Assembly: GCA_019636015.1 (NCBI GenBank)
Contig: JAHBYJ010000002.1
Span: 1 to 64,000 of the forward strand
Source of the DNA: Parvibaculaceae bacterium
GTDB lineage: Bacteria > Pseudomonadota > Alphaproteobacteria > Parvibaculales > Parvibaculaceae
Length of the DNA stretch: 64,000 nt
Direction: 5' to 3'
Below, in pieces: positions 2,402 to 44,556 of this stretch. The notes beneath the pieces were generated by a model, which saw nothing but the letters and a program-made list of their open reading frames with translations, did no database searches and was not told where the DNA came from. The stretch's first letter is position 1. Each line of letters starts with the position of its first letter. The translations under genes were made by a program, and so were the position numbers.

Positions 2402-2451
2402 CGCTTCGCCCTGATGGGCTACGCGTGGCGCAGCCACGAGGAGACCATCAG
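2401..2451. repeat. Palindromic repeat, left part (interrupted by prophage)
   Basis: Left part of an element split by the prophage. The arm ACGCTTCGCCCTGATGG (2401-2417) is the exact reverse complement of CC (2445-2446) plus ATCAG plus GGCGAAGCGT (44547-44556), giving 17-base perfect arms once the prophage is removed. The centre contains the hairpin CGTGGC-GCA-GCCACG. Bases 2416-2448 are identical, over 33 bases, to 44860-44892 at the 3' end of the GIY-YIG gene. The last five bases, ATCAG (2447-2451), are the target-site duplication. Confidence 0.9.
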
Positions 2452-2491
2452 TGTAGCGCGCCACATGGTTTGAGGCAGGTGCGCCAGATGG
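2452..2491. other. Prophage left terminus with two transposase-binding motifs
   Basis: Phage end distal to the repressor. Two copies of an 11-base core lie in tandem 23 bases apart: GCGCCACATGG (2458-2468) and GCGCCAGATGG (2481-2491). The same cores occur at the opposite end of the prophage, inverted. By analogy to Mu att-end sites these are read as binding sites of the MuA-like transposase. From here to the first gene stop at 2548 nothing else is recognised. Confidence 0.8.
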
Positions 2492-2547
2492 TCAGCGAAA
2501 TTTCAGGGGGGCTGAAGCGGCCTTTCCGGAGCCGCTGAAAGGGCTCT

Positions 2548-3213
2548 TCAACGGGCGTTCAGGGGCTCGATGCAGGCCCGGTCGTCATGCCCGCCCTTCA
2601 CCTTGTTCACCCGGCTAGAGACCTCCTCGACCTTGATCCAGTCGGCCGGGCACGGCTTCAGGACCGCCTCGTCGGCCCGGCCGGCAAGCCAGCTCTCCAG
2701 GTCGTAGCGGCCGAGAATGACGGGCATCCGGTCATGGACTTCCGCCATCCGGCTATTGGCTTCGGTCGTGATGAGGGAGCAAGAGGTCACCTCCTCGCCC
2801 TCCGGTCCCGTCCAGCTGTCCCAAATCCCGGCAACGGCCATGGGCTCGCCTGACCCCATGGTGATGTAGAAGGTCCGCTTTGACCCCTTTTCCCCGCTCC
2901 ACTCATAGAAGCCAGACATGGGCAGGATCATCCGCTTCCGCTTGAAAAGCGGCCCCCACATCTTCGCCTGGGCGATGCCTTCGGCCCGCGCATTGATGGT
3001 GAAGGTGGGCGGCTTCTCCTGCTTCCACCATGAGGGGATGAGCCCCCACCGCATCCGGGAGGCATACCGGCCCTTCTCGTCGGCCCGGATCGCCCAGACG
3101 CGGTTTGTCGGGGCGACATTGAACCGCTCCTCGACATTCTGAGGGGAGCCGGTCAGCCCATAGAGCTCGACCAGCTCCGCCCAGGTGAAATATTGGGTGA
3201 AGCGCCCGCACAT
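2548..3213 (-). CDS. SRAP-domain protein (YedK/HMCES family), prophage-encoded
   Basis: 221 residues, full-length SRAP fold. After Met removal Cys2 (MCGRF) becomes the N-terminal nucleophile that forms a thiazolidine link to abasic sites in single-stranded DNA. The other conserved blocks are present: FNVAPT, RWGLIPSWW, INARAE, GFYEW and HDRMP. The family protects or processes abasic sites at stalled forks. It lies inside the prophage, only about 100 bases from its end, in the accessory block with the DNA methylases. A role in tolerating damaged or modified phage DNA is inferred, not shown. Confidence 0.9.
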   Translation of the reverse strand: MCGRFTQYFTWAELVELYGLTGSPQNVEERFNVAPTNRVWAIRADEKGRYASRMRWGLIPSWWKQEKPPTFTINARAEGIAQAKMWGPLFKRKRMILPMSGFYEWSGEKGSKRTFYITMGSGEPMAVAGIWDSWTGPEGEEVTSCSLITTEANSRMAEVHDRMPVILGRYDLESWLAGRADEAVLKPCPADWIKVEEVSSRVNKVKGGHDDRACIEPLNAR

Positions 3214-3222
3214 AGATGAAAC

Positions 3223-3624
3223 TTAGCCTTTGGTTGCCCCCTTGATCAGCACCTTGAGAAATTCCTCATATGTGCTGTAAACGCCATCCGTGAAGTCATA
3301 TACGCCCTTCGTTCCATCCCTCATAAGAGGAGGCAACCTCTCCCAAACGCCGAATGGGCTGGTGGGTGTGATGGGGGCGATATCCCCAGTCATCATTACC
3401 GCCCACGCAAGAACCGGCTCGAAATTCACGCTCGCCGTCGCCGCGTTCTCAACCACTACCGCGAACATCTTTCCGTCTGCGGGAAGGACCTGCGCCACCG
3501 TCATCGAGGCGTGCTCCTTGAGTTCGAAGGTTTTACCCGATTTGAGCATGATAGTTTTGCCGTCGGTCCACGAGATTTCATCCGCATTTACATAGCCGTT
3601 TGTTGTCTCGACGAAGTGAGCCAT
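3223..3624 (-). CDS. Hypothetical prophage protein
   Basis: 133 residues if started at MAHFVETTNGYVNADEIS; an ATG ten codons upstream (3654) is also possible. The opening looks like a beta-hairpin module (FVETTNGYVNADEISWTDG, ILKSGKTFEL-like strands), and the C-terminal part is hydrophilic. I recognise no family. It lies 9 bases upstream of the SRAP gene on the same strand, so the two may form a short late or accessory operon at the prophage end. Another 77 bases separate it from the Dam gene. Confidence 0.6.
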   Translation of the reverse strand: MAHFVETTNGYVNADEISWTDGKTIMLKSGKTFELKEHASMTVAQVLPADGKMFAVVVENAATASVNFEPVLAWAVMMTGDIAPITPTSPFGVWERLPPLMRDGTKGVYDFTDGVYSTYEEFLKVLIKGATKG

Positions 3625-3701
3625 TAGTGTCCTCTTCCATTTTGGCCGACTCATTGGGAACGATCGATCCTACCCCCCAGTCCCGACCGGGTGCACGTTT
3701 T

Positions 3702-4502
3702 TCACCCTGCCGGCGTCACGATCAGCTCCCCGGCGGATACCGCCTTCTTGCCGCCGCCCACCATATAGGTCGTCTTCACCTTGTGGAGGCGGAAGGCGGA
3801 GAAGGTCTCCCGGATCGGCTTCACGTCGTTGATCGACATGATGAAGCGGCCCTTGAGGGCTGCCAGCCGCTCGGCGAGCTCGGCATAGTCGTCCCGGCTG
3901 AAGAGGTCCCGGCCATAGACGTGCTCGGTGCCGTAATAGGGCGGGTCCAGATAGAAGAGCGTTCCCGGCCCGTCATAAGTGTCGAGCAGCTCCCGCCAGT
4001 CCAGGCATTCGATAACGACGCGGGTGAGCCGCCCATGCACGTCCTCGATCATCGGCATGACCTTCGTCACGTCGAAGCGCGCCGCCGCCGTCCGCTGCGT
4101 CCCGAAAGAGCGTCCCTCGATCTTGCCGCCGAAGCCCGTGCGCTGGAGATAGATGAAGCGCGCTGCCCGTTCGAGGTCGGTCAGGGTCTTGGGATCGGTG
4201 GCGGCGAGGCGCTCGAATTCGGCTCTCGTCGTGAGCTGGTGACGGAGGAACTCCGCGAACGGGACATAGTGGCGCTGGACGATCCGAAAGAGATTGGCGA
4301 CTTCCCGGCTCGCGTCGTTGATGATCTCGGCCTTGGGTTGCAATCGCCTCCTGAAAAAGATGCCGCCCATGCCCACAAAGGCTTCCACGTAGCAATGGTG
4401 GGGCGTTGCCTCGATCATTGGAACGATCCTTCCGGCGAGGTTCCGCTTGCCACCCATATAGGCGGCGAGCGGCTTCACCGGCTCGATTTCAACGTGCTGC
4501 AT
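3702..4502 (-). CDS. DNA N6-adenine methyltransferase (D12 class, Dam-like)
   Basis: 266 residues. The SAM-binding motif FVGMGG (about 42-47) precedes the catalytic motif DPPY (about 186-189, in YLDPPYYGTEHVYG), the order of the alpha/D12 amino-MTase class. The opening KPLAAYMGGKRNLAGRIVPMI is the usual D12 N-terminus. The start ATG lies inside the end of the upstream overlapping frame, which suggests translational coupling. A phage orphan methylase, with no restriction partner visible, most likely protects phage DNA from host restriction. Target sequence unknown. Confidence 0.9.
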   Translation of the reverse strand: MQHVEIEPVKPLAAYMGGKRNLAGRIVPMIEATPHHCYVEAFVGMGGIFFRRRLQPKAEIINDASREVANLFRIVQRHYVPFAEFLRHQLTTRAEFERLAATDPKTLTDLERAARFIYLQRTGFGGKIEGRSFGTQRTAAARFDVTKVMPMIEDVHGRLTRVVIECLDWRELLDTYDGPGTLFYLDPPYYGTEHVYGRDLFSRDDYAELAERLAALKGRFIMSINDVKPIRETFSAFRLHKVKTTYMVGGGKKAVSAGELIVTPAG

Positions 4503-5436
4503 TTTCAGCCTCCGAAGTCAGCCTTGAGAGTTCGATACGCGAGCGCTGCAGCCAGGCTGCAAACCCCGTTACCGGCCGCGCGCAGCTCGTCCATCCGATC
4601 GGCCACCCCATCATCCACTCCGTGAAGCGCGGGTTGTAGTGAAGGGTCCCTGCGGAGGCATGTGTGCCAAGCTGCAAGCTCACCCGGAGCGGGGGCAAAG
4701 AGCGGAAGATCATCTCGTCTCTCGTCCCCGGCCGGAAGCCGGTCGATTGCAGCAGGAGCCAGAAGAGCGTCCACACTTTCGACGCCTCCTTCGGCCCCTT
4801 CTGCTGACCCTTCATGCCCTTCGGAATTTCGAACATGAGGCCGCCCGGCCCGATGCGCAGTTCGACGCGGTTCCCGTTGTTGCTCGCGGTCGGCGTGGGC
4901 CAATACGAATAGCCGCTGCCTCCAGTGAGAAGCGCCCGCTTCAGCCGCGCTGAACAGGCCCGCTTTAACTCGGAAACCCATCCTCTGTAGTTCGCGGCCG
5001 ACATCGAAAAATCCCAGATCGAGGTGGCCGAGCACATTTTCGAGGAAGACCCATTCGGGCTCGGTCTCGCCGATGATCCGCGCGATGTCCGGCCAGAGGT
5101 GCCGCGGGTCCGCCGCCCCGCGCCGCTTGCCCGACGAGGAGAAGGGTTGGCAGGGATAGCCGGCAGTGAGGATATGAATGCGGCCGCGCCACGGGCGGCC
5201 GTCGAAGGACTTAACGTCGCTCCAGACAGGCGCGCGATCCAGCGCCTCGTCTTCCATGCGGGAGACGAGAGTGGCCGCAGCATGGGCTTCCCGCTCGACG
5301 AAACAAACAGTGCGATATCCCGGCTCAGCGATATGGATGCCGAGCTCGAGGCCGCCATAGCCCGCGCAGAGCGCGAGCCCGTTGAGCGGGGCAGAAATTC
5401 GGGTGGAATGTAGAGCCACAATTTGAGCCTCATGTC
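4489..5436 (-). CDS. Second reading frame overlapping the cytosine methylase gene
   Basis: Open frame on the same strand as the methylase gene but in another phase, from MRLKLWLYIPPEF to a stop at 4489, about 315 residues. It covers the whole methylase gene apart from a few bases. Its second half does not look like random shadow sequence: YRGWVSELKRACSARLKRA, then GYSYWPTPTASNNGNR, and near the end NPRFTEWMMGWPIGWT followed by GFAAWLQRSR. From memory, such phrases recur in phage proteins encoded beside or within Dcm genes. A shorter start is MSAANYRGW at 5004. It shows no methylase motif. The stop overlaps the Dam start. Function unknown; a dual-coding artefact remains possible. Confidence 0.5.
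   Translation of the reverse strand, partial: DMRLKLWLYIPPEFLPRSTGSRSARAMAASSSASISLSRDIALFVSSSGKPMLRPLSSPAWKTRRWIARLSGATLSPSTAARGAAAFISSLPAIPANPSPRRASGAGRRTRGTSGRTSRGSSARPSPNGSSSKMCSATSIWDFSMSAANYRGWVSELKRACSARLKRALLTGGSGYSYWPTPTASNNGNRVELRIGPGGLMFEIPKGMKGQQKGPKEASKVWTLFWLLLQSTGFRPGTRDEMIFRSLPPLRVSLQLGTHASAGTLHYNPRFTEWMMGWPIGWTSCARPVTGFAAWLQRSRIELSRLTSEAENAAR
4505..5419 (-). CDS. DNA (cytosine-5-)-methyltransferase (Dcm family)
   Basis: 304 residues with the ordered C5-MTase motifs: motif I GLALCAGYGGLELG (about 14-27, SAM binding), motif IV GYPCQPFS (catalytic Cys90), motif VI FLENV (about 125-129), motif VIII QRLFVLA (about 168-174) and a C-terminal motif X-like RAAGNGV (about 280). The segment between VIII and X (about 178-270) is hydrophilic and poorly conserved, and it is exactly where the overlapping frame looks most protein-like. 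Orphan phage methylase, presumably anti-restriction. It runs directly into the second frame and the Dam gene. Confidence 0.9.
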   Translation of the reverse strand: MALHSTRISAPLNGLALCAGYGGLELGIHIAEPGYRTVCFVEREAHAAATLVSRMEDEALDRAPVWSDVKSFDGRPWRGRIHILTAGYPCQPFSSSGKRRGAADPRHLWPDIARIIGETEPEWVFLENVLGHLDLGFFDVGRELQRMGFRVKAGLFSAAEAGASHWRQRLFVLAHADREQQREPRRTAHRAGRPHVRNSEGHEGSAEGAEGGVESVDALLAPAAIDRLPAGDERRDDLPLFAPAPGELAAWHTCLRRDPSLQPALHGVDDGVADRMDELRAAGNGVCSLAAALAYRTLKADFGG

Positions 5437-5567
5437 GGGCGCTCCTGGCGCTCCGGTTGCGGGCTCGGTGATGGCCTCAGGGAATTTATCGTGCCGCAGC
5501 GGCGGCACTTGATCTCGATGAGGCCAGCTATAGCGTTGCCCCCCGCCTTCGCGGGGAATGTCTCCAT
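5430..5567 (-). CDS. Com-like zinc-binding protein (truncated first knuckle)
   Basis: 45 residues from METFPAKAGG, ending in IEIKCRRCGTINSLRP and a proline-rich tail. This ending is characteristic of the Com family; in Mu, Com is the zinc-binding translational activator of the mom modification gene. Only one CxxC pair is present. The N-terminal half, where Com normally has a second CxxC, carries none, so four-cysteine zinc binding is not possible in one chain. An in-frame ATG seven codons upstream (5588) is an alternative start. Position just upstream of the methylases matches the com-mom arrangement. Confidence 0.6.
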   Translation of the reverse strand: METFPAKAGGNAIAGLIEIKCRRCGTINSLRPSPSPQPERQERPT

Positions 5568-5586
5568 GGGCTGGAAAGGTTCCACC

Positions 5587-5685
5587 ATGAAGAAACCCGA
5601 TTTCCTCATTGTCACCGTCGCGACGATCTCGATGGTTATCCTCGTCGCGGGGTTCCTTGTCGGCGTGCTAGGCCTCGCCTTCTGA
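5587..5685 (+). CDS. Possible 32-residue membrane microprotein
   Basis: Plus-strand open frame MKKPDFLIVTVATISMVILV..., one continuous hydrophobic segment (about 5-32) after a two-lysine start. A good ribosome site (GGAAAGG) lies 9 bases before the ATG. It runs against the late genes and occupies a stretch where the minus strand has no convincing gene. Too short to assign by sequence; it could be a small accessory membrane protein or a chance frame. Confidence 0.4.
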   Translation: MKKPDFLIVTVATISMVILVAGFLVGVLGLAF

Positions 5686-7223: not shown

Positions 7224-7234
7224 GCCGTTTCCTT

Positions 7235-13136: not shown

Positions 13137-13139
13137 GGC

Positions 13140-24842: not shown

Positions 24843-26120
24843 TTACGACGAACGATAGGCCAGGACGCCGGACCGCAGATTGTCCAGCGCGGAACCGGGC
24901 CGTCCGGTGAACATGGTGAGCGCCTGCCACTGTCCGGCTTCCTCGTCCGCGACCAGGGCGACGACGCGATTGCCCGAGAGTTGCAGCAGCTTCACATAGC
25001 GCCGCCGCAGATAGACGCGGCCGCTCTCCTCGTGCCGCGAAAAGCCGACCCAGATTTCCTGCGGGGCTTCGACCAGCTCCCGGATGAAGGGCCAGTAGGC
25101 AGCGCGGTTGACCTCGCCCGGATTGCCCTTTGCCTTTTCGAGCAAATGATCGGTCACCGCCTGCGTGACATTCACCCTGTTGCCGAGCGGGTCGGTGAAG
25201 ATCGCCTCGTCACCGCCAAGCGCATTTCTGAAAGCCCGCTTCAGCGCCTCTTCATAGGGTGTGCCGTCGCGGTTCAACGGCGGCCGTGGCGCAGGCTGCG
25301 TCGCGGTCCCCTGCGGCGCGAGCGGCGCCACACTGTCGCGCATCGAGCTCTTGCCTTCGAGCGGCCTGAAATCGTCGCCATGGCGCGCGATGGCGAGCGC
25401 ATTGGGACCGCGGCCGAACGCGCCGGCGCCGGGATTGTAGGCAAAGCCCGGTGCGATGCCTGCCGGCGTCTCGATCTCGACCGGCCCTTCCGGCGTGTTG
25501 ATTTTTGACTTCTGCGTCCCCTTCGGCAGTTTGTCGTCCGGCGTCACCTTGAGGCCAAGCCGCTTCAGGTCGTCCTCGGAAAGCGACTGCACGAAGCAGC
25601 GGCATCCCCAGTCGTTCGGCGGAAAATAGGTCAGCCAGAAAGGATGATCGACCGGCAGCACGATGTCGTGGAGCTTGCGATGCGAGAAGCGCACCCGCTC
25701 GTCAGCCATCGTGATGTAGCGGATGTAGGGCCGGACATGTTTCAGCCGCTGGATTTGCGCCCAGCGCCCGGCCGAGAAGGCGGTGGAGAGGTTCGTCTCA
25801 TAGATCGTCCGGGAGCGCCAGCCCCGCGAGCCGTTGTAGCTCCAGCCATGCGCCGCGACGATACGGTCGAAGTCCTTCCGGAAATCCGCAAGCGTGCGGC
25901 CTTCCGCGATCGCCTTCGTCACCGCCTCGTGGAAGTCCTTGACCAGCGCATCCTTCATTGCGCCGGCGACAACGAACGCGCGGGAGTGCATGTCCTCCCA
26001 CATGTCGGTCCAGGCGCGCGTCGGCAGTCGTGTCTTGTTCCGCAGGAATTCGATTGCCTCGGTGAAGTGAACGGGCTCCGCGCGCGGCGAAGGCGTCGAC
26101 CCTGTCGCGACCGTTCCCAT
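24843..26120 (-). CDS. MuF head morphogenesis protein with C-terminal nuclease-like domain
   Basis: 425 residues. The MuF domain (about 1-210) is clear: helices FRKDFDRIVAAHGW and RTIYETNLSTAFSAGRWAQI, and the end signature HPFWLTYFPPNDWGCRCFVQ. After a linker, residues about 285-425 (EALKRAFRNALGGDEAIFTDP, ALTMFTGRPGSALDNLRSG) resemble the PBECR2 Barnase/EndoU/colicin-E5-like nuclease fold, seen fused to MuF elsewhere. The C-terminal assignment is from recalled pattern. The protein is packaged in the head and might be injected. Confidence 0.85.
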   Translation of the reverse strand: MGTVATGSTPSPRAEPVHFTEAIEFLRNKTRLPTRAWTDMWEDMHSRAFVVAGAMKDALVKDFHEAVTKAIAEGRTLADFRKDFDRIVAAHGWSYNGSRGWRSRTIYETNLSTAFSAGRWAQIQRLKHVRPYIRYITMADERVRFSHRKLHDIVLPVDHPFWLTYFPPNDWGCRCFVQSLSEDDLKRLGLKVTPDDKLPKGTQKSKINTPEGPVEIETPAGIAPGFAYNPGAGAFGRGPNALAIARHGDDFRPLEGKSSMRDSVAPLAPQGTATQPAPRPPLNRDGTPYEEALKRAFRNALGGDEAIFTDPLGNRVNVTQAVTDHLLEKAKGNPGEVNRAAYWPFIRELVEAPQEIWVGFSRHEESGRVYLRRRYVKLLQLSGNRVVALVADEEAGQWQALTMFTGRPGSALDNLRSGVLAYRSS

Positions 26121-32434: not shown

Positions 32435-32667
32435 GCGAAGCTACCTTCAACCTTGAACTGCCAGCCGCCGAGCCGTTCCGCGCGATCGAATTCGAAGACA
32501 TCGCAGAAGGCCTCGCCCGCGCGCTTTGCGGCACTGCCCGCCGCCAGAGCCTCTTCGTCGGTCGCGAGCGGCGTAAAAAACAGCACGCGGCGCACGATCT
32601 CGCCCTCGACATCGCGATAGACCGCGACATGGGTGAAGCCCGGATGCTTGAGCGGCGCCATGCTCAT
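32431..32667 (-). CDS. Hypothetical early protein
   Basis: 78 residues from MSMAPLKHPGFTHVAVYRDVEGEIVRRVLFF; MAPLKHP two codons later is equally possible. Alpha/beta, no family recognised. It ends overlapping the next gene. Confidence 0.55.
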   Translation of the reverse strand: MSMAPLKHPGFTHVAVYRDVEGEIVRRVLFFTPLATDEEALAAGSAAKRAGEAFCDVFEFDRAERLGGWQFKVEGSFA

Positions 32668-33104
32668 GCTGCACGCGCCTCCTTGTATCGCTCGACCTGT
32701 GCCCGCAACTCGTCGCGAGCGAGCGCGTAAGGCCCGGTCCACTTTGGCACTTTCCGGCAGGCATGCATGACCGTTGTATGATCCCGGTCGAAATGACGGC
32801 CGAGCTGCTTGGTCGAAAGCAGGGTGAAAGTGGCGCCGAGCCATATGGCGAGCTGGCGGGGTCTCGCGATCATCAAAGCCCTGCTTCGCTCCGCGAGCTC
32901 TTCCGGCGTCAGGCCGAAGTGCCGGCAGACGAGCCCCTCGATTTCCTCCAGCGTCTCGTATTCGCGCCGCGGTACGCCGAGCGCCGTCAGCCTGGCCCGC
33001 GTTCCCCGCAACCGGGCAATCAGCGCATCCATTTCGCGCAGCTCCGCCTGAAGCGCCGAGCGGCGGACCAGCAACATGGAAATCAGCGCGGCGTTCTCGC
33101 TCAT
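32664..33104 (-). CDS. Free-standing DnaA domain IV protein
   Basis: 146 residues. The N-terminal half is a helical linker (RRSALQAELREMDALIARLRGTR). From about residue 54 it matches the DnaA C-terminal DNA-binding domain: EIEGLVCRHFGLTPEELAERSR, RQLAIWLGATFTLLSTKQLG and the signature GRHFDRDHTTVMHACRKV (about 102-119). No AAA+ domain is present. It could bind DnaA boxes and interfere with or redirect host replication initiation, or act as a regulator. Confidence 0.85.
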   Translation of the reverse strand: MSENAALISMLLVRRSALQAELREMDALIARLRGTRARLTALGVPRREYETLEEIEGLVCRHFGLTPEELAERSRALMIARPRQLAIWLGATFTLLSTKQLGRHFDRDHTTVMHACRKVPKWTGPYALARDELRAQVERYKEARAA

Positions 33105-34223: not shown

Positions 34224-34647
34224 CGCCATTCTCCGCGTCCAGGCAGCCAGAGCAGAGATCGTCCTCGAGCCAGAAGCAGGGCCCGTCTTCGGTCTGGCAG
34301 GCGTTCTCCTGCGTGCAGCCGCAGACGCGGCATTGTCGCCCTGCCGGATCGGGCGCGCGCGCCTCGACAGGCAGCCCGCCCAGGATGCCGGCGAACTGCT
34401 GCAGGTCGTTGCCATCGGTCTCGACGCTGGCACAGGCCTCGCAGCTCGACCGAACCTCGACCGAATTCGTGGATTGGCACCAATCGCAGCGCCGCTCGCA
34501 AAGGTCGCATCCGTCCTCCGGGTTCACGCAGCCGATCTCGTCGAGGCAGGAATAGACGACGCCCTCACCGCCGCAATTGGGGCAGATATCGTCGAGTTCG
34601 GCTTCCGGGGCGCTCTGTCCGCCGGTTTCGTGGTCAAGGTGGGTCAT
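34216..34647 (-). CDS. Cysteine-rich putative zinc-binding protein
   Basis: 143 residues with 18 cysteines. The N-terminal block has CPNCGGEG, CLDEIGC, CDLCERRCDWC; the C-terminal block CRVCGCTQENACQTEDGPC and CSGC matches a motif common in Mu-like phages. Two or more structural zinc sites are likely. Perhaps a DNA/RNA-binding or adaptor protein; exact role unknown. Confidence 0.75.
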   Translation of the reverse strand: MTHLDHETGGQSAPEAELDDICPNCGGEGVVYSCLDEIGCVNPEDGCDLCERRCDWCQSTNSVEVRSSCEACASVETDGNDLQQFAGILGGLPVEARAPDPAGRQCRVCGCTQENACQTEDGPCFWLEDDLCSGCLDAENGDV

Positions 34648-35027
34648 GCCGCGTCGTCCTTCCTGTCCAGGGTGAGGCGCGCGGTGCGCAGGGCCGAACG
34701 GCCGAGAAGCGCCAGCGCGTCGAGGGGTTGCTTTTGCCTGGTGAAGCCGCCATCGGCCCGGTCGTTGAAGAGCGGCACGAGGTCGTGCGGCCTGACGCCG
34801 AGCCCGGTGCAGGCATCGAGCGTGTGGCGGAAAAGTTCGATCGCCGCCTCGCGCGGGGCTTTCACCGCCTCTTCATCCGGCTTGAAGACGCCGTTGCAGA
34901 GCGCGTCGGTGCCCGCCCGCCATGCCGCCATGAAGGCCGCGCGCGCATCGCCCTTCAGCACATTGCGGAGCGGCAGGCCGGCGAAGAGAAGATTGGAAAG
35001 CGCATCGGCGAGGGGCGAGGTGCTCAT
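34644..35027 (-). CDS. Hypothetical early protein
   Basis: 127 residues, all-helical by composition (RAAFMAAWRAGTDALCNGVF, EAAIELFRHTLDACTGLGVRPHDLVPLFND). Unrecognised. Coupled on both sides by 4-base overlaps. Confidence 0.6.
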   Translation of the reverse strand: MSTSPLADALSNLLFAGLPLRNVLKGDARAAFMAAWRAGTDALCNGVFKPDEEAVKAPREAAIELFRHTLDACTGLGVRPHDLVPLFNDRADGGFTRQKQPLDALALLGRSALRTARLTLDRKDDAA

Positions 35028-35341
35028 GCGGCTTCTTCCTCCGCCTCGTCTCGTGCGCGCGCCCGCGTAGCACGATCCGTGCCAGTTCTGCCTTCCACCC
35101 CGCGAAGGGCGCGCTCATAGGCGGCCAGCCGCTCGTCTTCTTCGTGCACGATGTCGCATTCGCGCTGGCGGCGGCCAAGCATGCGGCGGATCGTCTTCAC
35201 GTCGAGTTTCAGCGCGCGGGCCTCGTCGAACTTCTCACCCTTCTCGTCGGAAAGGGCCTGCCGCTGCACCTCGATATCCTCGATCTCCTTCACGAGGCGC
35301 CGGAGCGTCGAGGCTTGCTGCTTGTTGAGGATGACGCTCAT
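35024..35341 (-). CDS. GapR-like (DUF2312) DNA-binding protein
   Basis: 105 residues. Residues about 8-78 match the GapR/DUF2312 fold: coiled coil LRRLVKEIEDIEVQRQALSDEK, then EKFDEARALKLDVKTIRRML and RRQRECDIVHEEDERLAAYERAL, equivalent to Caulobacter GapR (FDVKVLKKVVRIRK and following). GapR tetramers bind overtwisted DNA ahead of polymerases. The C-terminal 25 residues (GRTGTDRATRARARDEAEEE) are an added charged tail. Confidence 0.85.
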   Translation of the reverse strand: MSVILNKQQASTLRRLVKEIEDIEVQRQALSDEKGEKFDEARALKLDVKTIRRMLGRRQRECDIVHEEDERLAAYERALRGVEGRTGTDRATRARARDEAEEEAA

Positions 35342-36336: not shown

Positions 36337-36338
36337 GG

Positions 36339-37010: not shown

Positions 37011-37228
37011 GAGAACTTCCTTCCTGCCTTGCGGGTTGAGATGCCGACCGACGAGCTGAGAAGAACGCCGTCGAATTGCTGTTGGCGGCGGCGGCGCGCG
37101 AGCTGCCGGCGGCGCATATTGCGTAAGGCGGCGGACGCCTCTCTGTTTGCCCGGAATGCACGCCAGCGAAGGCGGAGCGCGTGAAAGAGCGGGCGCAGCT
37201 GCGCGCGAAGATCAGGGATGCTGGTCAC
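37007..37228 (-). CDS. Arginine-rich small protein
   Basis: 73 residues from a GTG (TSIPDLRAQLRPLFHALRLRWR...), 22 percent arginine, with RRRQLARRRRQQQ in the middle. It overlaps the upstream gene by 17 bases and the DUF3164 start by 4. Probably binds nucleic acid. Confidence 0.5.
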   Translation of the reverse strand: MTSIPDLRAQLRPLFHALRLRWRAFRANREASAALRNMRRRQLARRRRQQQFDGVLLSSSVGISTRKAGRKFS

Positions 37229-37553
37229 CGTAAATCTCCATGTAGTTGAATGCCTGGAGCTGCTGTTCGACCTTTGTCGCCTGCACCTCGGCGCGGGCGG
37301 CAAGGCCGCGGCGCGCCTCTGCCGGTGCATCTCCAAGACGGTTGAGAAGGTAGATCAGCCCTGCCGCATCGACGCCGAGCTGGTTGAGCGCCATGATCGA
37401 TTGCGCCATGGCGCGGATTTCGCGCGTGGAAACCATCGTCGCGGCGCGCGGTCCGGAATGCGGCATGACGAGCTTCGTCGCCAGCTCGATCACATCGACT
37501 TTCGGAAGCCCGTCTTCCGCGAGCTCGGCTGGCTTCGCCTGGGCGGTGGTCAT
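37212..37553 (-). CDS. Hypothetical early protein
   Basis: 113 residues from MTTAQAKPAELAEDGLPKVDVIELATKLV; helical with STREIRAMAQSIMALNQLGVDAAGLIYLLNRLG. ATG overlaps the upstream stop (4 bases), which sets the start. No family recognised. Confidence 0.6.
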   Translation of the reverse strand: MTTAQAKPAELAEDGLPKVDVIELATKLVMPHSGPRAATMVSTREIRAMAQSIMALNQLGVDAAGLIYLLNRLGDAPAEARRGLAARAEVQATKVEQQLQAFNYMEIYGDQHP

Positions 37554-37864
37554 AACCGGCCCTCCGCGCGAGCAATCACCAAATCGAGCCATGCGTACTC
37601 TTTTGCGAACCGCTCCTCCGACATATGGGAGTGGTTGTCCTCCCAGAATTGGTGGCGGCATTCCCGAAGCACCTCGATCATCGCAGGAGCAGCGGCCATC
37701 AGTGTCGCGTTGGCTCGCGTTTCCGCTTCGCTTCTGAGGGGGGTCGGCCAGAGAAGCGCGCAGATGGGCTGGCAGTCGTGGGTGGGCGCGTTCTCGTACC
37801 CTGCGGGCACGACGAAAGCTGCCTTAGTGTGAACGCGCCATTCGCCCGGCGTATGCTTGCTCAT
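37550..37864 (-). CDS. Ead/Ea22-like early protein
   Basis: 104 residues opening MSKHTPGEWRVH, with ETRANATLMAAAPAMIEVLRECRHQFW in the centre. The HTPGxW start and the ANA-LMAAAP helix are typical of Ead/Ea22-like proteins in phage early regions. Function unknown. Confidence 0.7.
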   Translation of the reverse strand: MSKHTPGEWRVHTKAAFVVPAGYENAPTHDCQPICALLWPTPLRSEAETRANATLMAAAPAMIEVLRECRHQFWEDNHSHMSEERFAKEYAWLDLVIARAEGRL

Positions 37865-38115
37865 TGCTCGCCTCCCTGTGACCGCACGAGCTGAGGCTTC
37901 AGCCTCGTATGCGCGCGGATGAAAACCACCTTGTCGTCTTGTGCCTGGTCGGAGAGCTTGAAGCTTCCCGGCACAGGCATGCGCTCGAAGCGCTCGACCT
38001 CCTCGACGATCGCTTCGAGCCGCCCGAGAAAGAGCTTCATGGTGGCGGGCGAAACCGGTTCGTCGCCGAATGCGCGCATCGTTGAAGTGAGGTTGCGGAG
38101 ATCCGTTGAGATCAT
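37861..38115 (-). CDS. Hypothetical early protein
   Basis: 84 residues (MISTDLRNLTSTMRAFGDEPVSPATMKLFLGRLEAIVEEVERFERMPVP), two helices then DDKVVFIRAHTRLKPQLV. Coupled by 4-base overlaps. Unrecognised. Confidence 0.55.
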   Translation of the reverse strand: MISTDLRNLTSTMRAFGDEPVSPATMKLFLGRLEAIVEEVERFERMPVPGSFKLSDQAQDDKVVFIRAHTRLKPQLVRSQGGEQ

Positions 38116-38489
38116 TTCCCGTCTCCCAGCCTTGAGTGAGGACAGCCGCCTCTGCAGGCGCGATAGACGCGCGCGCTGAGCGCGTTGCCGAAGGAGAGCT
38201 TCTTGCCCTGCTCCGCGATGCAGCGGTCGCGCCCGATCTCTTCGAGCACAGGGCACATCACCGTCACCGAGAGCAGCGCACCGCGAACCTTCTCGGCGAT
38301 GCCTTCCGTGTCGCCGGCATAGCTGTTGCCGAGAACGCGAGTGACCACCGTGTCGGAGACGCCAAGCCGCTTGGCGGCGGCGCGCTGCGATGTCCGCTCG
38401 CACTCTTCGACCAGGGCTTGCAGCCAGTCTTCTGTGGCGCGGTCGCCCCACGCCTTGGCGACGCGATCTTTCAGGAGTTGGGCGCTCAT
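38112..38489 (-). CDS. Helix-turn-helix protein
   Basis: 125 residues. A compact HTH is visible: ECERTSQRAAAKRLGVSDTVVTRVLGNSYAGD (about 29-60). The C-terminal part has three or more cysteines (VYRACRGGCPHSRLG) that could bind zinc. Located among early genes downstream of MuB; probable regulator. Confidence 0.65.
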   Translation of the reverse strand: MSAQLLKDRVAKAWGDRATEDWLQALVEECERTSQRAAAKRLGVSDTVVTRVLGNSYAGDTEGIAEKVRGALLSVTVMCPVLEEIGRDRCIAEQGKKLSFGNALSARVYRACRGGCPHSRLGDGK

Positions 38490-39085
38490 GCCTCACCCCC
38501 GAACGCGATTTCCTCGCCGGTATTGGGGTCGTAGACCGCATGCGCCCGAATGACAGGCGCGCGCATGCCCGTCTTCCTCAGCAGAAGGAATTGCTTGTAG
38601 CCGTTGGACTCGGGTGCCGTGCCGGGCAGCCGCTTCGACAGCTCCCGGACATAGCCGGCCTTCGCGAGCGCGCGGGTGTAGTGCACGATGTTGGAGGCAG
38701 CGTCCTTCTCGGTGCCCTTGCAGGCGTTCTCGAGGAGGTCAGGCACGCTGAAGCGTCCGCGCATCATCATGGTGCGCCAGACGCGCTCGCGAAGCGTGTC
38801 CGGCCTGGGCTTTCTGGTGCCGGTGAGGGGCCGCTGCGGGCCCGGCCGGTAGCCGCGGCGATGGGCCTCGACGCCCTCCTTCGTCGCCTGATAACAGCCC
38901 TTGTCAGCGCGCTCGACAAAGCGCTGCGTGATGAGTGTGCTGACCGAGGCCGTGATCTTCTTGCGCGCGATGTCGCTGAGCTCATCGGCGAGCTGGTCGA
39001 GCGTGAGACAGACCTTCCGCTCGGAAAGCATGGCAAGGACGCGGGCCTGCGCGCCGGGCTTTGTGGTGCGGGGTGCGCGCATCAT
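38486..39085 (-). CDS. Winged-helix early protein
   Basis: 199 residues with two winged-helix-like parts: RVLAMLSERKVCLTLDQLADELSDIARKKITASVSTLITQRFVERA and RERVWRTMMMRGRFSVPDLLENACKG... NIVHYTRALAKAGYVREL. Immediately follows the MuB ATPase with a 4-base overlap, as in related phages. Possibly regulatory or a replication accessory. Confidence 0.7.
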   Translation of the reverse strand: MMRAPRTTKPGAQARVLAMLSERKVCLTLDQLADELSDIARKKITASVSTLITQRFVERADKGCYQATKEGVEAHRRGYRPGPQRPLTGTRKPRPDTLRERVWRTMMMRGRFSVPDLLENACKGTEKDAASNIVHYTRALAKAGYVRELSKRLPGTAPESNGYKQFLLLRKTGMRAPVIRAHAVYDPNTGEEIAFGGEA

Positions 39086-39828
39086 GCCCTCCGCTTGAGT
39101 TCGGAGGGAAGGCCGTCGCTCGTCAGCGCGGAGAGCGGCACCTCGGCGAGGCCGATCTCCTCGACCCCCATGCGAAGCGCAATGGCTTCCACATTCGCGA
39201 CCGCCTTCTTGATGTCGCGCATGCGTCCCCGGGTGCGGGAATGGATTTGCGTGACAAGATCGTCCTTGAAGCGGAGGTCCTTGCCGCCCTTCAGCTCGGC
39301 CAGCCGGCTGCAGACGGTCCGCACATCTTCAGGCGTGGCCGGGCCAAATTCCGTCACATCGGAGAGGCGCGAGAAAATCTGGTGATAGCGCTTGAGCTTG
39401 TTGCTCGTGCCGGCATGTCCGGCAACGATGATCGGTGTAAGCGTGAGGTCGGAAATGTCGCGCAGCATCTCGATGAGGCGGATGTCGCGCATCGCATGCT
39501 CGATCTCGTCGACGATGAGCGACCGCCCGCTGCCCGCTAGTGCGGAGAGCAGGATGTGAAGAAGATCATTGTTCTTCCCGATCGGCTGGTGGCCGACCGC
39601 AACGACCAGCTCGCGGAGCATCGCAGTAAGCGTCCACGAGCTCTTCGCGCGGAGCAGCACGTGACCGCCCTGCACCGCATGCCATTCGAGCGTCGATGTC
39701 TTGCCGAACCCCGCCTCACCCTGGCAAAGCTGCCAGCACGCCTCGGGCGCGCCGGACATTTGGACGCGCTTCGTCCCGGCAAGAAACCGCTGGACGTTCG
39801 TTACTTCAGTCAGAAACTTGTGCCGCAT
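39082..39828 (-). CDS. MuB-like transposition ATPase
   Basis: 248 residues. AAA+ ATPase with Walker A QGEAGFGKTS (about 36-45) and Walker B SLIVDEIEHA (about 103-112); the C-terminal part resembles MuB helices (DLVTQIHSRTRGRMRDIKKAVANVE). It selects target DNA and stimulates the transposase. ATG 39828 is preceded by GGGAGA; a GTG five codons upstream is less likely. Directly downstream of the transposase gene. Confidence 0.9.
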   Translation of the reverse strand: MRHKFLTEVTNVQRFLAGTKRVQMSGAPEACWQLCQGEAGFGKTSTLEWHAVQGGHVLLRAKSSWTLTAMLRELVVAVGHQPIGKNNDLLHILLSALAGSGRSLIVDEIEHAMRDIRLIEMLRDISDLTLTPIIVAGHAGTSNKLKRYHQIFSRLSDVTEFGPATPEDVRTVCSRLAELKGGKDLRFKDDLVTQIHSRTRGRMRDIKKAVANVEAIALRMGVEEIGLAEVPLSALTSDGLPSELKRRA

Positions 39829-39854
39829 AGTGTCTCCCTTCACTGCGGGTGGCC

Positions 39855-42227
39855 TCAGGCTCTCGCACTTGTCTCCGTTTCGAGGTGCAAGCGGATCACC
39901 GGATCGTCTTCAAGCGCGCGGAACGTCTCGCGCTGGATGTCGTTGAGCTGGTCGGGGTTGCGCCGTGCCCACTGGAACCACGTCCAGTCGTCAGTGAAGC
40001 GCGCCTGGTCTTCCGCCGTATCGCGGGCAGGCATGTCGATCACGAGCGCATCGCGCGCCGCCGCAGCAAGCGCCTCGTCGTCGTCGCTGAGGGCGGGCAT
40101 GGCCGGCATCGGATCGTCGATCGCGCGCGCCGCTTCCGCCGCCGCTTCGAGCGCGGGCGTGACGTGCGGTGTCGAGGGCCGCGCAAAGGCGATGACCGTC
40201 TCGGCCTCCGCCTTGCGGCGCTGGTCTTCGGCGATCTCGTCAGCGATGTTGTGGACGCGCTGGTCCCGCTTGCGCCGTTTCATCTCGTCACGCAGCTCGC
40301 GAAGATCGTCGCGCTGGATTTGCTTGGCCCGCGAGGCAACCTCGCGCCGGTCGATGCCGGTGCGCTCTGGTGCTTCCGCCACGCAGATGAATTTCATGTC
40401 CGGCGTGTAGACGACGATGCGGCCCATATCCTCGGGATCGAGCCGGACATGCACACGCTCGCCGACAAAGGCGCCAAGCTCCGGGGCGATGAAATGCGTA
40501 TTCTCGACGCGGATGCCCTTTTTCTGGACTGTCCGCCCGCCCGTGGTGTCCGGCGCTTCGGCCAGCAGCATGTCGAGCGCGCGATCGTCCTCGATCATCC
40601 GCACTTCGCCGAGCCAGCCGGCCGCCTGCAGAAGCGGCGAGGCCTTGAGCGCGTTGTGGCGCCGCCGGTGATACTCATGCGCTAGCCAGTTATCGATCCG
40701 CGCCTGCAGCTCTTCTGCCGTGATCTCGGCCGATATCACCTTGTCGGCTTCGCCAAGCCGTTGCGAGAAAGCGCGGCTTGCCTCGATACCCTTGCGCTGT
40801 TCGACATTGTGTCCGACGAAGCCGGGCAGCATCGAGACGAGCTCGTGTTGCAGCGTCTGGAAGAAGCGTTCGACGTGAGGCTTGCCTTCCGGCGTGAAGG
40901 GCGGGCAGAAGCGCTGCTCGATGCCGAGCGCACCAAGAGCGCGGGCGACATGCGCGGACGCAAAGTCCTTGCCGTTGTCCATCTTGATGATGTCGGGCAC
41001 GCCGAACTGCTTGATCGCGCGACGGATGACGAGCGTCGCGGCGGTCGCTTTCGGCGTCGGCGTCACCAGCACATTGGCCTTGCGCGAATAGACATCGACG
41101 ACCGCGACCAGCGTGTGCCGGCGCTTCCCGCTCTCGGTCGTCGGATCGAGCAATTCGAGGTCCGCCGGCGAGGCGTCGATTTCCCAAACGGCGTTGAGCG
41201 CGGTGGCGGCCGCGCTCTGCGAGCCGAAGGCGACGAGGCGGAGGTTCTTGTGCTGATCCGGGTTCTGCGCCTGCAGGAAGGCGTTCGCGTGGACCTCGCG
41301 GGCCTGCGCCATGAAGCGCTGCACCGTGCGCTTCGGAATGTCCTTGCCGAAGCGGGCCGAGATCGCCTGGACAAGCTGCGTTGCGATCAGGTGAGGCCGC
41401 GCCGCCATATTGGCGATGCAGAAATCGCGCAGCATCGGGTCGCCCTCGATCTGACCTTTCCCTTTGCGGTTGCCATACTTGCCGCCGAGCCGCTTTGCGC
41501 CTTCGCGCATAACCTGGGCTTGCCAGCGCTGCAGCGAGCCGACCGAGACCTTGCCGACCTCCTCTTGCACCCATGCTTCAACGGGGATTGCACCGCGATT
41601 GAAGAGGCTGCTGAAAGCCTGCCGCGCCAGCACCATCGACAGCCCGCCCTCTTCCTTGAAGGTGGCGAGCAGGTTGATGACGACGAGGCGCGCTGCAGCA
41701 CGGCGCGCTGCCTTGCCTGTCGGGATAGAAACCGCTCTCGCCGCCGTGGCACGGGCGCGAGTACACAGCGCCGGATCGTCGGCGAGAGCGGCCCCATGCG
41801 CTGCTGGCTGGGGGGAGGCCAGCGCGCGTGAAGAAGCGTGTCCCGCTACGGGGTCAACAGCTTGAGGGATGCTGACTGTCGCGGGACGCGCCGTCGCCAG
41901 GATCGAGGAGGACCCGTTTGGCGACATGCCGGCAGGGCCGGCATTGGAATGGGGTGCGGTCTCTTCGGGGAGGGAGGATGAAGAGACCGCCATCGGCGAC
42001 GGGGAGGAGTTCGGCACCGATGTTTCGCTAAGTGAGCGCAGCGCGAGATCGATCCGCGCGGCCTCGGGCAATGACGTGATGTGATATTCGCGTCCACCGC
42101 CGCGACCCTCGCGAGGCCGCGCCCGCCAGCCCTCACGCTCGGCTTGGCGGAATATGTCGGCGCGATCGCTGCAGATTGCGTCGAGCTTCAGCGCGGCAAG
42201 CTCCTGCGCGGTGAACCACTCCTTCAT
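39855..42227 (-). CDS. MuA-like DDE transposase
   Basis: 790 residues. The start is ATG 42227 behind GAGGTG. The N-terminal winged-helix end-binding domain (MKEWFTAQELAALKLDAICSDRADIFRQAEREGWR) matches MuA I-alpha, and RWQAQVMREGAKRLGGKYG lies before the integrase core. Catalytic residues: Asp351 (WEIDAS), Asp417 (KMDNGK) and Glu453 (HVERFF), a D,D-35-E triad. The Mu-type C-terminal domain follows. Insertion with a 5-base duplication agrees. Confidence 0.95.
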   Translation of the reverse strand: MKEWFTAQELAALKLDAICSDRADIFRQAEREGWRARPREGRGGGREYHITSLPEAARIDLALRSLSETSVPNSSPSPMAVSSSSLPEETAPHSNAGPAGMSPNGSSSILATARPATVSIPQAVDPVAGHASSRALASPQPAAHGAALADDPALCTRARATAARAVSIPTGKAARRAAARLVVINLLATFKEEGGLSMVLARQAFSSLFNRGAIPVEAWVQEEVGKVSVGSLQRWQAQVMREGAKRLGGKYGNRKGKGQIEGDPMLRDFCIANMAARPHLIATQLVQAISARFGKDIPKRTVQRFMAQAREVHANAFLQAQNPDQHKNLRLVAFGSQSAAATALNAVWEIDASPADLELLDPTTESGKRRHTLVAVVDVYSRKANVLVTPTPKATAATLVIRRAIKQFGVPDIIKMDNGKDFASAHVARALGALGIEQRFCPPFTPEGKPHVERFFQTLQHELVSMLPGFVGHNVEQRKGIEASRAFSQRLGEADKVISAEITAEELQARIDNWLAHEYHRRRHNALKASPLLQAAGWLGEVRMIEDDRALDMLLAEAPDTTGGRTVQKKGIRVENTHFIAPELGAFVGERVHVRLDPEDMGRIVVYTPDMKFICVAEAPERTGIDRREVASRAKQIQRDDLRELRDEMKRRKRDQRVHNIADEIAEDQRRKAEAETVIAFARPSTPHVTPALEAAAEAARAIDDPMPAMPALSDDDEALAAAARDALVIDMPARDTAEDQARFTDDWTWFQWARRNPDQLNDIQRETFRALEDDPVIRLHLETETSARA

Positions 42228-42353
42228 GCGCGCACCTCGCGCGCAGGAAGAAGCCCGGAAATGTCCGCGGCCGGACGGAACGCAACAAGCCCGGCCGCGC
42301 CTTCCCCTATACTCAGAGAACCACCAGTGAGTCGGGAGAAGAGGGAGAGGGAG

Positions 42354-42731
42354 ATGGAGATCGACATCAGAGCGGAGCGCGTGAGCCGCATCCTGGGCGC
42401 GTGGGCTGACCGTCGCATCCGGCCACACTGCGCACCATCGAGCGAACCACTGGACTTCTCGCAGGAACCGGCTGCGACGAGGCTCCTGCTCGATTTGGCA
42501 GGCGACCCGGAGGCTGACTTGTCAGCGGTCCCGGGGGCTGTGCTTCGCATCGTATGGGCCCGCGTCTTGTTCGGCGCCGGCGTCGCGAAGATGATGCCTG
42601 ACACAGTCATGCTGAAGGCCCCTTTCGGGATTTCAGATGACGAACTGCTGCCGCATTTAATTCGGGACGTACTTGCTCAAACGACGCTCCCGACTGAATG
42701 GCGGCGAGAACAATGGCGCCGACTTCAGTGA
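42354..42731 (+). CDS. Unrecognised plus-strand gene between ner and the transposase
   Basis: 125 residues, MEIDIRAERVSRILGAWADRRIRPHC..., with ATRLLLDLAGDPEADLSAVP and FGISDDELLPHLIRDVLAQT, compact helical composition. A very strong ribosome site (GAGGGAGAGGGAG) precedes the ATG and TATACT lies about 45 bases upstream. It runs opposite to the early transcript that must cross it from ner to the transposase. No family known to me. Confidence 0.65.
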   Translation: MEIDIRAERVSRILGAWADRRIRPHCAPSSEPLDFSQEPAATRLLLDLAGDPEADLSAVPGAVLRIVWARVLFGAGVAKMMPDTVMLKAPFGISDDELLPHLIRDVLAQTTLPTEWRREQWRRLQ

Positions 42732-42785
42732 CGAAGGCAGGCGGCACACACAAGGCGCTCCAGCATCTCGCTCCCCCCGCCTTGC

Positions 42786-43067
42786 TCATGCCGCGTCCCT
42801 CGACTTCTGGTCGCGCTCCTGATGGATGCGGCGACCCTTGCCGTCGAAGCGTTCGGGGAAAAGCTCTTGGACGCGCATGCCGAGCGCATCGGCCAGAGCG
42901 CGCTCAAGCTCGGCGCTCGGCTGATACATCGCCTGCCGGGCTGCGAACCGGGACTTGCCGAGCTTCCGGCTGATCGAGGCGAATGACTCGCCGCGAAGCC
43001 GCAATTGCCCTAAAACCCAGACAGCTCGTTCGTGAGGTTCCGTAGGCACTGTTTTCTGTGTGTTCAT
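42786..43067 (-). CDS. Ner-like early regulator
   Basis: 93 residues from MNTQKTVPTEPHERAVWVLGQLRLRGESF; ATGs at 43073 and 43079 are alternatives. The helix-turn-helix SFASISRKLGKSRFAARQAMYQPS and the ending LGMRVQELFPERFDGKGRR are the Ner/Nlp family signature. It turns down early transcription and opposes the repressor. First gene leftward from the switch region. Confidence 0.88.
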   Translation of the reverse strand: MNTQKTVPTEPHERAVWVLGQLRLRGESFASISRKLGKSRFAARQAMYQPSAELERALADALGMRVQELFPERFDGKGRRIHQERDQKSRDAA

Positions 43068-43111
43068 ACCCATGTGCATTATCAGATACACAAAAATAAT
43101 GCCGATCCAAG

Positions 43112-43141
43112 CTATTTTTGTGGCGTTAACCACAAAAATAG
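43112..43141. promoter_or_regulatory. Switch-region operator dyad
   Basis: Perfect 12-base inverted repeat, CTATTTTTGTGG (43112-43123) and CCACAAAAATAG (43130-43141), around a 6-base centre. Further half-sites occur at about 43089-43101 (ACACAAAAATAAT) and about 43193-43205 (TATATTTTTGGTG). The region 43068-43226 is strikingly AT-rich compared with its surroundings and separates divergent ner and repressor genes. Expected operators for the repressor and/or Ner. Confidence 0.75.
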
Positions 43142-43226
43142 AAACCTCTTGCCACATCAATGGGTTAAGTGGTCCGATTTTTATGCACGGGAAGTATATT
43201 TTTGGTGACGGACCGGGGGAGGGCTC

Positions 43227-43934
43227 GTGACAACGCTTGGGGAGCGGTTCGAACTCGTCCGAAAGCACCTCGGCGGATCGCAGCGCGCGGTGGCGGAAAT
43301 GGTTTCCGTCTCGAAGAACACTTGGCAGAGATACGAGAAGGGAGACGTGCCGACAGGCGCCACGCTACTTGCTCTAGCGGCGCACGGCATAAACACTGAT
43401 TGGCTGCTGACCGGAGAGGGCACAATGCTTCGCGGAGCATTGGAAAGAGAGGCCGCAAGCGGCTTCAGCGACCTTCCACCCGCAGAGCTGGAAGGCAGCG
43501 GCTTTGATCGGGGCGGCTTTGTCCGCATCCCGCGTTACGACGTGAAGGTAGGCGCAGGAGGCGGCACCTTTTATGAGGAGCAGAACCTCTTGGGCGGCGT
43601 GGCCTTCAGCCGCGAATGGCTCCATAGAGCCTTGCGGGCGAACCCGGCGGACCTGATGATCGTCGAAGCGGCCGGCGACTCCATGCCGGGCATCGCGGAT
43701 GATGGAGCGCTGTTGTTGCTGGACAAGAGCGACCCGGTATTCCGGGGCGATGGTGCCTATGTCTTCGTGGTGGATGGGCTCTTGCTGGTGAAGAACCTGC
43801 GGCTCCTGCTGGATGGCTCGCTGGAGGTGACGAGCGGCGATGATCACCAGTCCACCAGGGAGGTGATCGCGCGCCGCGACCTTGATAAGGTCAGGATCGT
43901 GGGAAGGGTAATCTGGAAGGCCGGCAGGGCCTGA
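43227..43934 (+). CDS. LexA-type (S24) phage repressor
   Basis: 235 residues, GTG start behind GGGGGAGGG. Residues 1-65 are an XRE helix-turn-helix (GSQRAVAEMVSVSKNTWQRYEKGDVPTGATLLALA). The C-terminal S24 domain has Ser152 (EAAGDSMPGI) and Lys189 (LLLVKNLRL), so RecA-stimulated self-cleavage is expected; A110-G111 is a candidate cleavage bond. It keeps the prophage silent and would be released by the SOS response. Mu itself uses a different repressor type. Confidence 0.9.
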   Translation: MTTLGERFELVRKHLGGSQRAVAEMVSVSKNTWQRYEKGDVPTGATLLALAAHGINTDWLLTGEGTMLRGALEREAASGFSDLPPAELEGSGFDRGGFVRIPRYDVKVGAGGGTFYEEQNLLGGVAFSREWLHRALRANPADLMIVEAAGDSMPGIADDGALLLLDKSDPVFRGDGAYVFVVDGLLLVKNLRLLLDGSLEVTSGDDHQSTREVIARRDLDKVRIVGRVIWKAGRA

Positions 43935-43944
43935 GGGGGAAGAG

Positions 43945-44217
43945 ATGTCCGAAGCAGTTCAGCAGTCCGAGCGCCGCAAACACTGGCGCGATGCAGCTAT
44001 GTGGATTATCGGAATTCCGCTGTTCCTATTCATCATCATCGTTATTGCAGAAGGGCCGAAGACCCAGATTGAGATCGACACGGAGCAGTGCATCCGGGAA
44101 AAGGGTTTCGGGAATTGGCGGGGGTCACTCGGCATATCTCTGGAGCAGTTCTGCAAGGCCTCCGCCCAGTACAAGGCCATCCTGCAGCACCGCCGCGACC
44201 ATCCGGAGCTGTATTAA
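43945..44217 (+). CDS. Small membrane protein next to the repressor
   Basis: 90 residues. A basic start (SERRKHWRDAAMW), one transmembrane segment (about 18-36, AMWIIGIPLFLFIIIVIAEG), then a polar tail with two cysteines (TEQCIREKGFG, LEQFCKAS). RBS GGGGGAAGAG. Ten bases after the repressor stop, so expressed in the lysogen; candidate superinfection-exclusion or other lysogenic accessory protein. No family recognised. Confidence 0.6.
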   Translation: MSEAVQQSERRKHWRDAAMWIIGIPLFLFIIIVIAEGPKTQIEIDTEQCIREKGFGNWRGSLGISLEQFCKASAQYKAILQHRRDHPELY

Positions 44218-44541
44218 GCCCCCACAACTTCGTCCCATCCGGATGATCATTTTTGGCGGATTTCTGGGGTTTCCTGCCTGTGGGCAGGGTCCACAACTTC
44301 GCGCCAGATGGATTGATTTCCTTAGCCGCGCAAAAATGGGCTAAGTCGTTGCGGCGGCGCGTGTTTCGGGTGATTTCCATCTGGCGCGCCGTCCGGCCCT
44401 GCGGCCGCCACCGGGAATGTTTCACGCGAAACCATGTGGCGCGGCGATTTTTCGCCCGATGCCCCTAAATCCCGGCAAATACTACGAAATCCCGCCTAAT
44501 CCCGGAATTCCCCGCCTCCTCAAACCATCTGGCACAGCACA
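44218..44541. other. Gene-free prophage right terminus with transposase-binding motifs
   Basis: Phage end next to the repressor. Cores of the 11-base motif: GCGCCAGATGG at 44301-44311 in plus orientation; inverted copies at 44377-44387 (GCGCCAGATGG), 44432-44442 (GCGCCACATGG) and 44525-44535 (GTGCCAGATGG). A degenerate copy with the same CCACAACTTCG flank may lie at about 44231. A six-base-stem hairpin occurs at 44273-44288. The last three bases are ACA. No gene is visible. Confidence 0.8.
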
Positions 44542-44556
44542 ATCAGGGCGAAGCGT
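44542..44556. repeat. Target-site duplication and right arm of palindrome
   Basis: ATCAG (44542-44546) repeats 2447-2451 and marks the right boundary of the prophage. The following GGCGAAGCGT (44547-44556) completes the 17-base arm whose partner begins at the tRNA end (2401). Confidence 0.93.

Follow-up and report, generated by a model that had tools for sequence, protein, structure and literature searches.

A Mu-type prophage of Parvibaculaceae from a clade whose lysogenic insertions are probably directed just behind tRNA genes

Mu-type phages are the textbook model of near-random transposition. Phage Mu itself inserts widely, avoiding mature tRNA sequences and entering their leaders and trailers, and no preference for tRNA flanks is reported in the passages of that study that we consulted (PMC7350765). 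Biased integration by Mu-like phages is already known for other targets, since Citromicrobium Mu-like phage A integrates in one 40-bp zone (n = 24) while its lytic transposition is chromosome-wide; Citromicrobium phage B has six hotspots (PMC12486242). Among Tn7-like elements, the CRISPR-associated transposons (CAST) of types I-D and I-B2 home through TnsD to sites shortly behind a tRNA gene, those of type I-D 30-33 nt behind tRNA-Leu (PMC10293859). In the open-access literature that we searched, we found no description of tRNA-directed insertion by a group of Mu-type phages. Here we analyse positions 1 to 64,000 of contig JAHBYJ010000002.1 (assembly GCA_019636015.1, a Parvibaculaceae bacterium), referred to as the window, from a host whose 2.88-Mb assembly comprises two contigs. 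The window contains a Mu-type prophage of 42,090 bp, hereafter W (2452-44541, transposase end at the right), from a clade whose lysogenic insertions we consider probably to be directed just behind tRNA genes.

The case for this reading is comparative. In a tree of 46 transposases, built by a quick method with branch support from the Shimodaira-Hasegawa-like approximate likelihood ratio test (SH-aLRT) only, W groups with the elements of genomes G017, G028, G032 and G192 and with viral contig L063 in one clade (SH-aLRT 100). All five fully read clade insertions lie 18-50 bp behind a tRNA gene, measured from the tRNA 3' end to the target duplication, and they carry five different 5-bp duplications. 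W starts 45 bp behind a tRNA-Thr (TGT) gene found by ARAGORN on the plus strand (2326-2401) and is bordered by ATCAG on the left (2447-2451) and on the right (44542-44546). Three others sit behind tRNA-Arg(CCT), namely G017 (gap 34 bp, duplication GGTTG), G028 (40 bp, ATTGC) and G032, from the same family as the host (50 bp, CATGT), and the element of G192, from another family, lies 18 bp behind tRNA-Gln(CTG) and is flanked by AAAAC. The R end of G017 was read behind the tRNA, with the matching GGTTG at an L end on another contig. An older R-end relic behind tRNA-Arg was invaded at different points by the elements of G028 and G032 and, as their duplications also differ, we regard them as separate events. 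In L063 the R end is off the contig, and 51 bp separate the L end from the beginning of a tyrosine-integrase gene. The clade sites do not show the near-random target choice that is typical of Mu, though not of all its relatives, and insertion next to tRNAs seems to reflect a targeting preference of the lineage.

Could random Mu-type insertions have fallen beside tRNAs by chance? A 400-kb sample of the G028 and G192 genomes contained four tRNAs, and about 0.1% of host positions lie within 100 bp behind a tRNA, which puts the chance of five out of five at 1e-15 if the sites are independent. That independence is imperfect, since tRNA-Arg(CCT) accounts for three of the sites and two lie inside relics. 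Two sites, the tRNA of G017 and the whole of G192, came to light after the idea had been formed, through searches blind to tRNAs: an R-end sequence search of 40 genomes of the order for the former, and a transposase search of 385 genomes of the class for the latter. Both are at tRNAs, for which the chance is about 1e-6. Transposase matches turned up in seven further genomes, of which G192 and G206 alone had their ends read (the others being G274, G358, G360, G411 and G441). We therefore hold coincidence to be very improbable, small and partly non-independent as the counted set is. One unrelated pattern match, the R-end-like one in G011 (L165), does also lie 68 bp behind tRNA-Phe; it was rejected because by eye it falls within a coding sequence.

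Several observations nevertheless weigh against a directed preference. That chance match shows that single cases mean little, and the fully read sites number only five, of which three are at the same tRNA and two inside relics. The gap varies from 18 to 50 bp, and the end facing the tRNA is R in four clade insertions and L in G192, which is looser than TnsD homing. The phage genes offer candidate selectors only. L217 and L218, known from the end motif alone, have an R-end motif with no tRNA in the examined flank. Moreover, none of the four fully read related insertions outside the clade lies within 100 bp of a tRNA, so the preference does not belong to the whole family. The element of G171 is inserted in a coding sequence read as an MBL-fold hydrolase, with duplication ACCGG and no tRNA in the flanks examined; that of G206 (GTGAC) has no tRNA in the 60 kb examined; that of G161, whose duplication CATCC was read by eye, has none in the flanks examined (8 kb and 300 bp); and that of BD1-7, one locus on two contigs and counted once, lies 345 bp behind tRNA-Leu in a gene with an integrase arm domain. 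When 27 viral contigs were searched for end pairs, only G171 (20/24) was accepted, the next scores of 18 and 17 being taken as chance, and the ends of G161 were found by motif after that search.

These outside insertions also bear on the idea that insertion is near random and that prophages survive mainly at harmless places such as tRNA 3' flanks. Genomic islands do commonly reside at tRNA flanks (PMC7344871), but related prophages that were fully read outside the clade have lasted at other places, one of them inside a gene, and with harmless flanks making up 1-2% of positions the chance of five out of five would still be about 1e-10 to 3e-9. We judge differential survival to be an improbable account of the clade sites.

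One-ended or transposase-less cases were kept out of the count of five. An R end in G015 lies 25 bp behind tRNA-Leu(CAA), in a genome with no transposase at E<=1e-30 and with no homologue of the window phage proteins in the adjoining 6.6 kb; an R end in L215 lies 90 bp behind tRNA-Thr, with no such homologue in its 9 kb; and the L end of L137, which falls outside the clade in the tree, lies 59 bp behind tRNA-Phe, these three distances including the duplication. L214 and L216, known from the end motif alone and with too short a flank, were left out, as were L126 and L147, which contain tRNAs with no end tied to them. A tRNA was present in six of 27 scanned loci (R ends L156, L175, L170 and L171, together with L165 and, about 870 bp away, L163). 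Across the 40 genomes the R-end pattern gave 50 matches at up to three mismatches, against 23 for a reversed control pattern, which indicates that most loose R-end matches are chance. As a separate observation, two related transposable phages outside the clade (the viral contigs behind L085 and L093; L085 positions 1-126 and L194 positions 1-300) are inserted in host sequences that are nearly identical. Their orientations are opposite and by eye they are about 10 bp apart, a hint of a different sort of hotspot.

The edges of W had been placed by the first-pass annotation at the two ATCAG copies, enclosing 42,090 bp that open with TGT and close with ACA and have like ends, and all of this was confirmed on the sequence. 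Read inward, the two ends are identical at 19 of 24 bases, the top score among 4,029,149 window pairs with a common 5-base duplication. The margin is only one, 18 being scored by 12 of the 15 top pairs listed, so that end match and duplication together are not decisive, and we rejected them as stand-alone proof of the edges. The prophage lies in inverse orientation, the right end in the window being the transposase (L) end and the left end the R end. Uninterrupted versions of the host neighbourhood, in which tRNA-Thr is followed by a hairpin and a GIY-YIG gene (44598-44951, plus strand, in the window), occur in two genomes of the same genus, G021 (81% identity over 709 aligned columns) and G011 (76% over 711 columns, with a deletion within the GIY-YIG gene). 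The first-pass annotation had predicted that a related strain would carry CCATCAGGGCG at the joint. These natural empty sites bear out the prediction in substance and not in letters: the joint reads CCGTAAGGGCG, and compared with CCATCAGGGCG both hairpin arms are altered together in G021 and G011. The 5-bp duplication and the empty sites together show transposition. The boundaries are right and by themselves ordinary; the tRNA preference of the clade is, for a small sample, a well-supported pattern.

Insertion by transposition had originally been set against tRNA attachment. Transposition of the Mu type with a 5-bp duplication stands, but the contrast is misleading for an element that begins 45 bp behind a tRNA. 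Its position adjoining a tRNA gene is what site-specific integration by a tyrosine recombinase would lead one to expect, yet the duplications differ among elements, W has a Mu transposase and end sites, and no Pfam hit to a tyrosine recombinase was obtained in any of the 61 predicted phage proteins, which indicates that insertion was not integrase-mediated. Such integration is, in our view, scarcely credible, and we rejected it, as the edges share only a 5-bp repeat 45 bp from the tRNA and no tRNA core.

W sits in the arm of a long hairpin. Excision had been said to restore a perfect palindrome; the arms are perfect over 18 bp, but the inner stem is imperfect, so the description was overstated. 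The hairpin lies directly behind tRNA-Thr and is followed by the small GIY-YIG gene, the whole spanning 2398-2451 and 44542-44951, with a partial second hairpin copy at 44860-44923. A similar hairpin/GIY-YIG unit, 71% identical, lies behind another tRNA in G022, and the unit may itself be mobile and associated with tRNAs.

The hairpin raises the question of whether the phage, rather than recognising tRNA genes themselves, is drawn to a physical state that is frequent behind them, such as hairpins or overwound DNA past strongly transcribed genes, perhaps through a GapR-like protein. The hotspots of Pseudomonas phages Ab30 and 2P1 are near hairpin-forming bacterial interspersed mosaic elements (PMC5977238), and GapR, of which the phage encodes a relative, gathers downstream of highly transcribed regions (PMC8360656). 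On the other hand, no such hairpin was seen by eye in the gaps of G017 and G192, the GapR-like gene is also present in G206 and G171, neither of which is at a tRNA, and an attraction of this kind should extend to rRNA and ribosomal-protein operons, none of which is among the five sites. Attraction to a physical state is unlikely on balance, although it deserves serious consideration.

Further support for transposition comes from the termini. The motif GCGCCASATGG had been reported twice at the left end and, at the right end, three times together with a GTG variant, in inverted orientation save for one copy, and this layout is as stated. At the R end the sites lie at 2458-2468 (R1) and 2481-2491 (R2), both on the plus strand and at offsets 8 and 31 from the terminus. 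At the L end they lie on the minus strand at 44525-44535 (the terminal L1 site, the GTG variant with one mismatch, offset 8), 44432-44442 (offset 101) and 44377-44387 (offset 156). All point inward except one on the plus strand at 44301-44311, for which a like-oriented site exists at the same offset in G032. A scan of the window found five exact copies, all near the two ends, so the motif is not equally common inside the prophage; shuffled sequences had a mean of 0.34 and none of 100 attained five. At up to two mismatches there is no enrichment (98 against 86.35), and 13 of 100 shuffles matched the count. In G017, G028 and G032, whose transposases are 55-61% identical to that of W in the best BLAST segments and whose ends were located by the same motif and duplication, the offsets are kept: L-end sites stand at 8, 101 and 156 or 157 in all four elements, with an extra site at 133 in these three relatives, and R-end sites stand at 8 and 31 in W, G028 and G032. 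The more distant G192 has strict-pattern sites only at 8 and 144 (L) and 30 (R), and the strict pattern gave no site in G206. Conservation of offsets in diverged relatives supports the motif as a probable mark of putative transposase sites.

The gene content agrees with this picture. Sixty-one phage genes were predicted with a simple codon-usage script, and all were scanned with Pfam and some with PHROGs. A Mu-type DDE transposase of 790 aa (39855-42227, minus strand; rve, Mu-transpos_C and HTH_Tnp_Mu_1; phrog_310) adjoins a MuB-like AAA ATPase of 248 aa (39082-39828, minus; phrog_296, DNA transposition protein), which is directly followed by a regulator-like protein of 199 aa (38486-39085, minus; phrog_2030). 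From the right end the order begins with a CI-like repressor with an S24 peptidase domain (43227-43934, plus) and continues with the transposase, the MuB-like ATPase, the regulator-like protein, GemA, a Mor-like activator and Mu Gp27, then with terminase, Mu portal, Mu F, Mu protease, gpT, Gp36 and virion-morphogenesis homologues; the remaining hits are to a tail tube, a tape measure and a lambda J-like tail protein. The first-pass assignment to Mu-type transposition is thus borne out by the transposase, the MuB-like ATPase and ten more Mu-family Pfam matches, together with the end sites and the empty sites. W combines an rve/Mu-transpos_C transposase, an adjacent MuB-type ATPase, a 5-bp duplication, TG...CA termini, several inward-pointing sites and Mu-family head genes with GemA (portal, F, protease, gpT, Gp27 and Gp36). 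Judged by its gene content, it is a transposable phage of the Mu type, in which the head genes are Mu-like and the tail genes lambda/siphovirus-like, and the tail hits suggest a siphovirus-like tail. The Pfam scan gave no TniQ or TnsD hit in any of the 61 proteins (E<=0.001). Among the other genes, the cargo at the R end includes genes for an SRAP-domain protein and for a D12-class adenine methyltransferase (2548-3213 and 3702-4502), and methyltransferase homologues also occur close to the R ends in G192 and G206; a PBECR2 nuclease-like domain is present at the C-terminus of the Mu F-like head protein (24843-26120); and the protein at 32664-33104 has a DnaA C-terminal helix-turn-helix domain.

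If the insertions are directed, the transposition machinery would pick the site during integration, and the MuB-like ATPase would probably respond to a phage or host factor marking the tRNA 3' flank. A rigid ruler of the TnsD kind is hard to square with a gap that varies and with the orientation seen in G192, which is reversed. To look for candidates, the presence of the early-region genes of W was scored in 22 elements, six of the clade and 16 others, at E<=0.001. The genes for the transposase, the MuB-like, 199-aa and 125-aa proteins, GemA and the Mor-like activator are present in all 22. A 127-aa protein (34644-35027, minus), our candidate target factor, is present in all six clade members and none of the 16 others; its gene overlaps by four bases the end of that for the GapR-like DNA-binding protein (35024-35341, minus; PF10073), which is present in all six and in three of the others. 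The 127-aa protein has no Pfam, PHROG or NCBIfam match and a phage-database search was empty; a scan of viral contigs returned only the contig of L063 and one 5-kb fragment, and weak matches occur in G441 (E 0.006 and 0.02). Its AlphaFold model is all-helical and of low confidence (mean pLDDT 60.8). It is not the sole clade-linked gene, as those at 37212-37553 and 37861-38115 are present in five of the six clade members (not in G192) and none of the others, and a gene common to one clade represents one evolutionary event, so we treat the 127-aa protein as a lead only.

A more specific proposal, which we advance tentatively as a possibility, is that the clade has evolved a form of integrative transposition directed to tRNAs, with a selector that the phage itself encodes and that is not related to TnsD/TniQ. 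This would be independently convergent with Tn7-like homing and with the yeast retrotransposons that target tRNA genes. The 127-aa protein, alone or with the GapR-like protein, would then act on the MuB-like ATPase, and the repeated invasion of old relics of R ends would single out tRNA flanks as landing pads.

How, then, does the clade of W compare with described systems? Phage Mu, Rhodobacter phage RC1 and Pseudoalteromonas phage HS6 resemble W in transposase, MuB-like ATPase, multiple end sites, 5-bp duplication and Mu-like head genes, and the W transposase is 34-35% identical to those of RC1 and HS6. Mu inserts widely, in contrast to the tRNA 3' flanks used by the W clade; RC1 and HS6 are likened to W by their genes. 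Citromicrobium phages A and B are, like W, alphaproteobacterial and Mu-like with biased integration, a likeness by description only. The target of phage A is a hypothetical gene, in contrast to tRNA flanks, and the Citromicrobium duplications fit NYSRN, a consensus reported for Mu-like phages (PMC12486242), whereas four of the five W-clade duplications do not; with one of five fitting in the clade and two of four outside it (G161 by eye), the numbers are too few to weigh. Ab30 and 2P1 have few hotspots over a mostly random background, near hairpin-forming repeats, and a search of the main text of that report did not find the word tRNA (PMC5977238). If the preference of the W clade is real, it would offer a compact CRISPR-free route to the directed insertion of large DNA, and the clade that lands at tRNAs, set beside related phages that do not, provides a natural comparison for learning how a MuB-like ATPase is directed. 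Finding a prophage next to a tRNA gene, moreover, does not imply that a site-specific integrase was used. CAST I-D and I-B2 share with W a DDE transposase, an ATPase of the MuB/TnsC type and insertion shortly behind a tRNA. They rely on TnsD/TniQ and a rather fixed distance, whereas the W clade, with no TniQ/TnsD hit, inserts across a gap of 18-50 bp and in an orientation that is not fixed.

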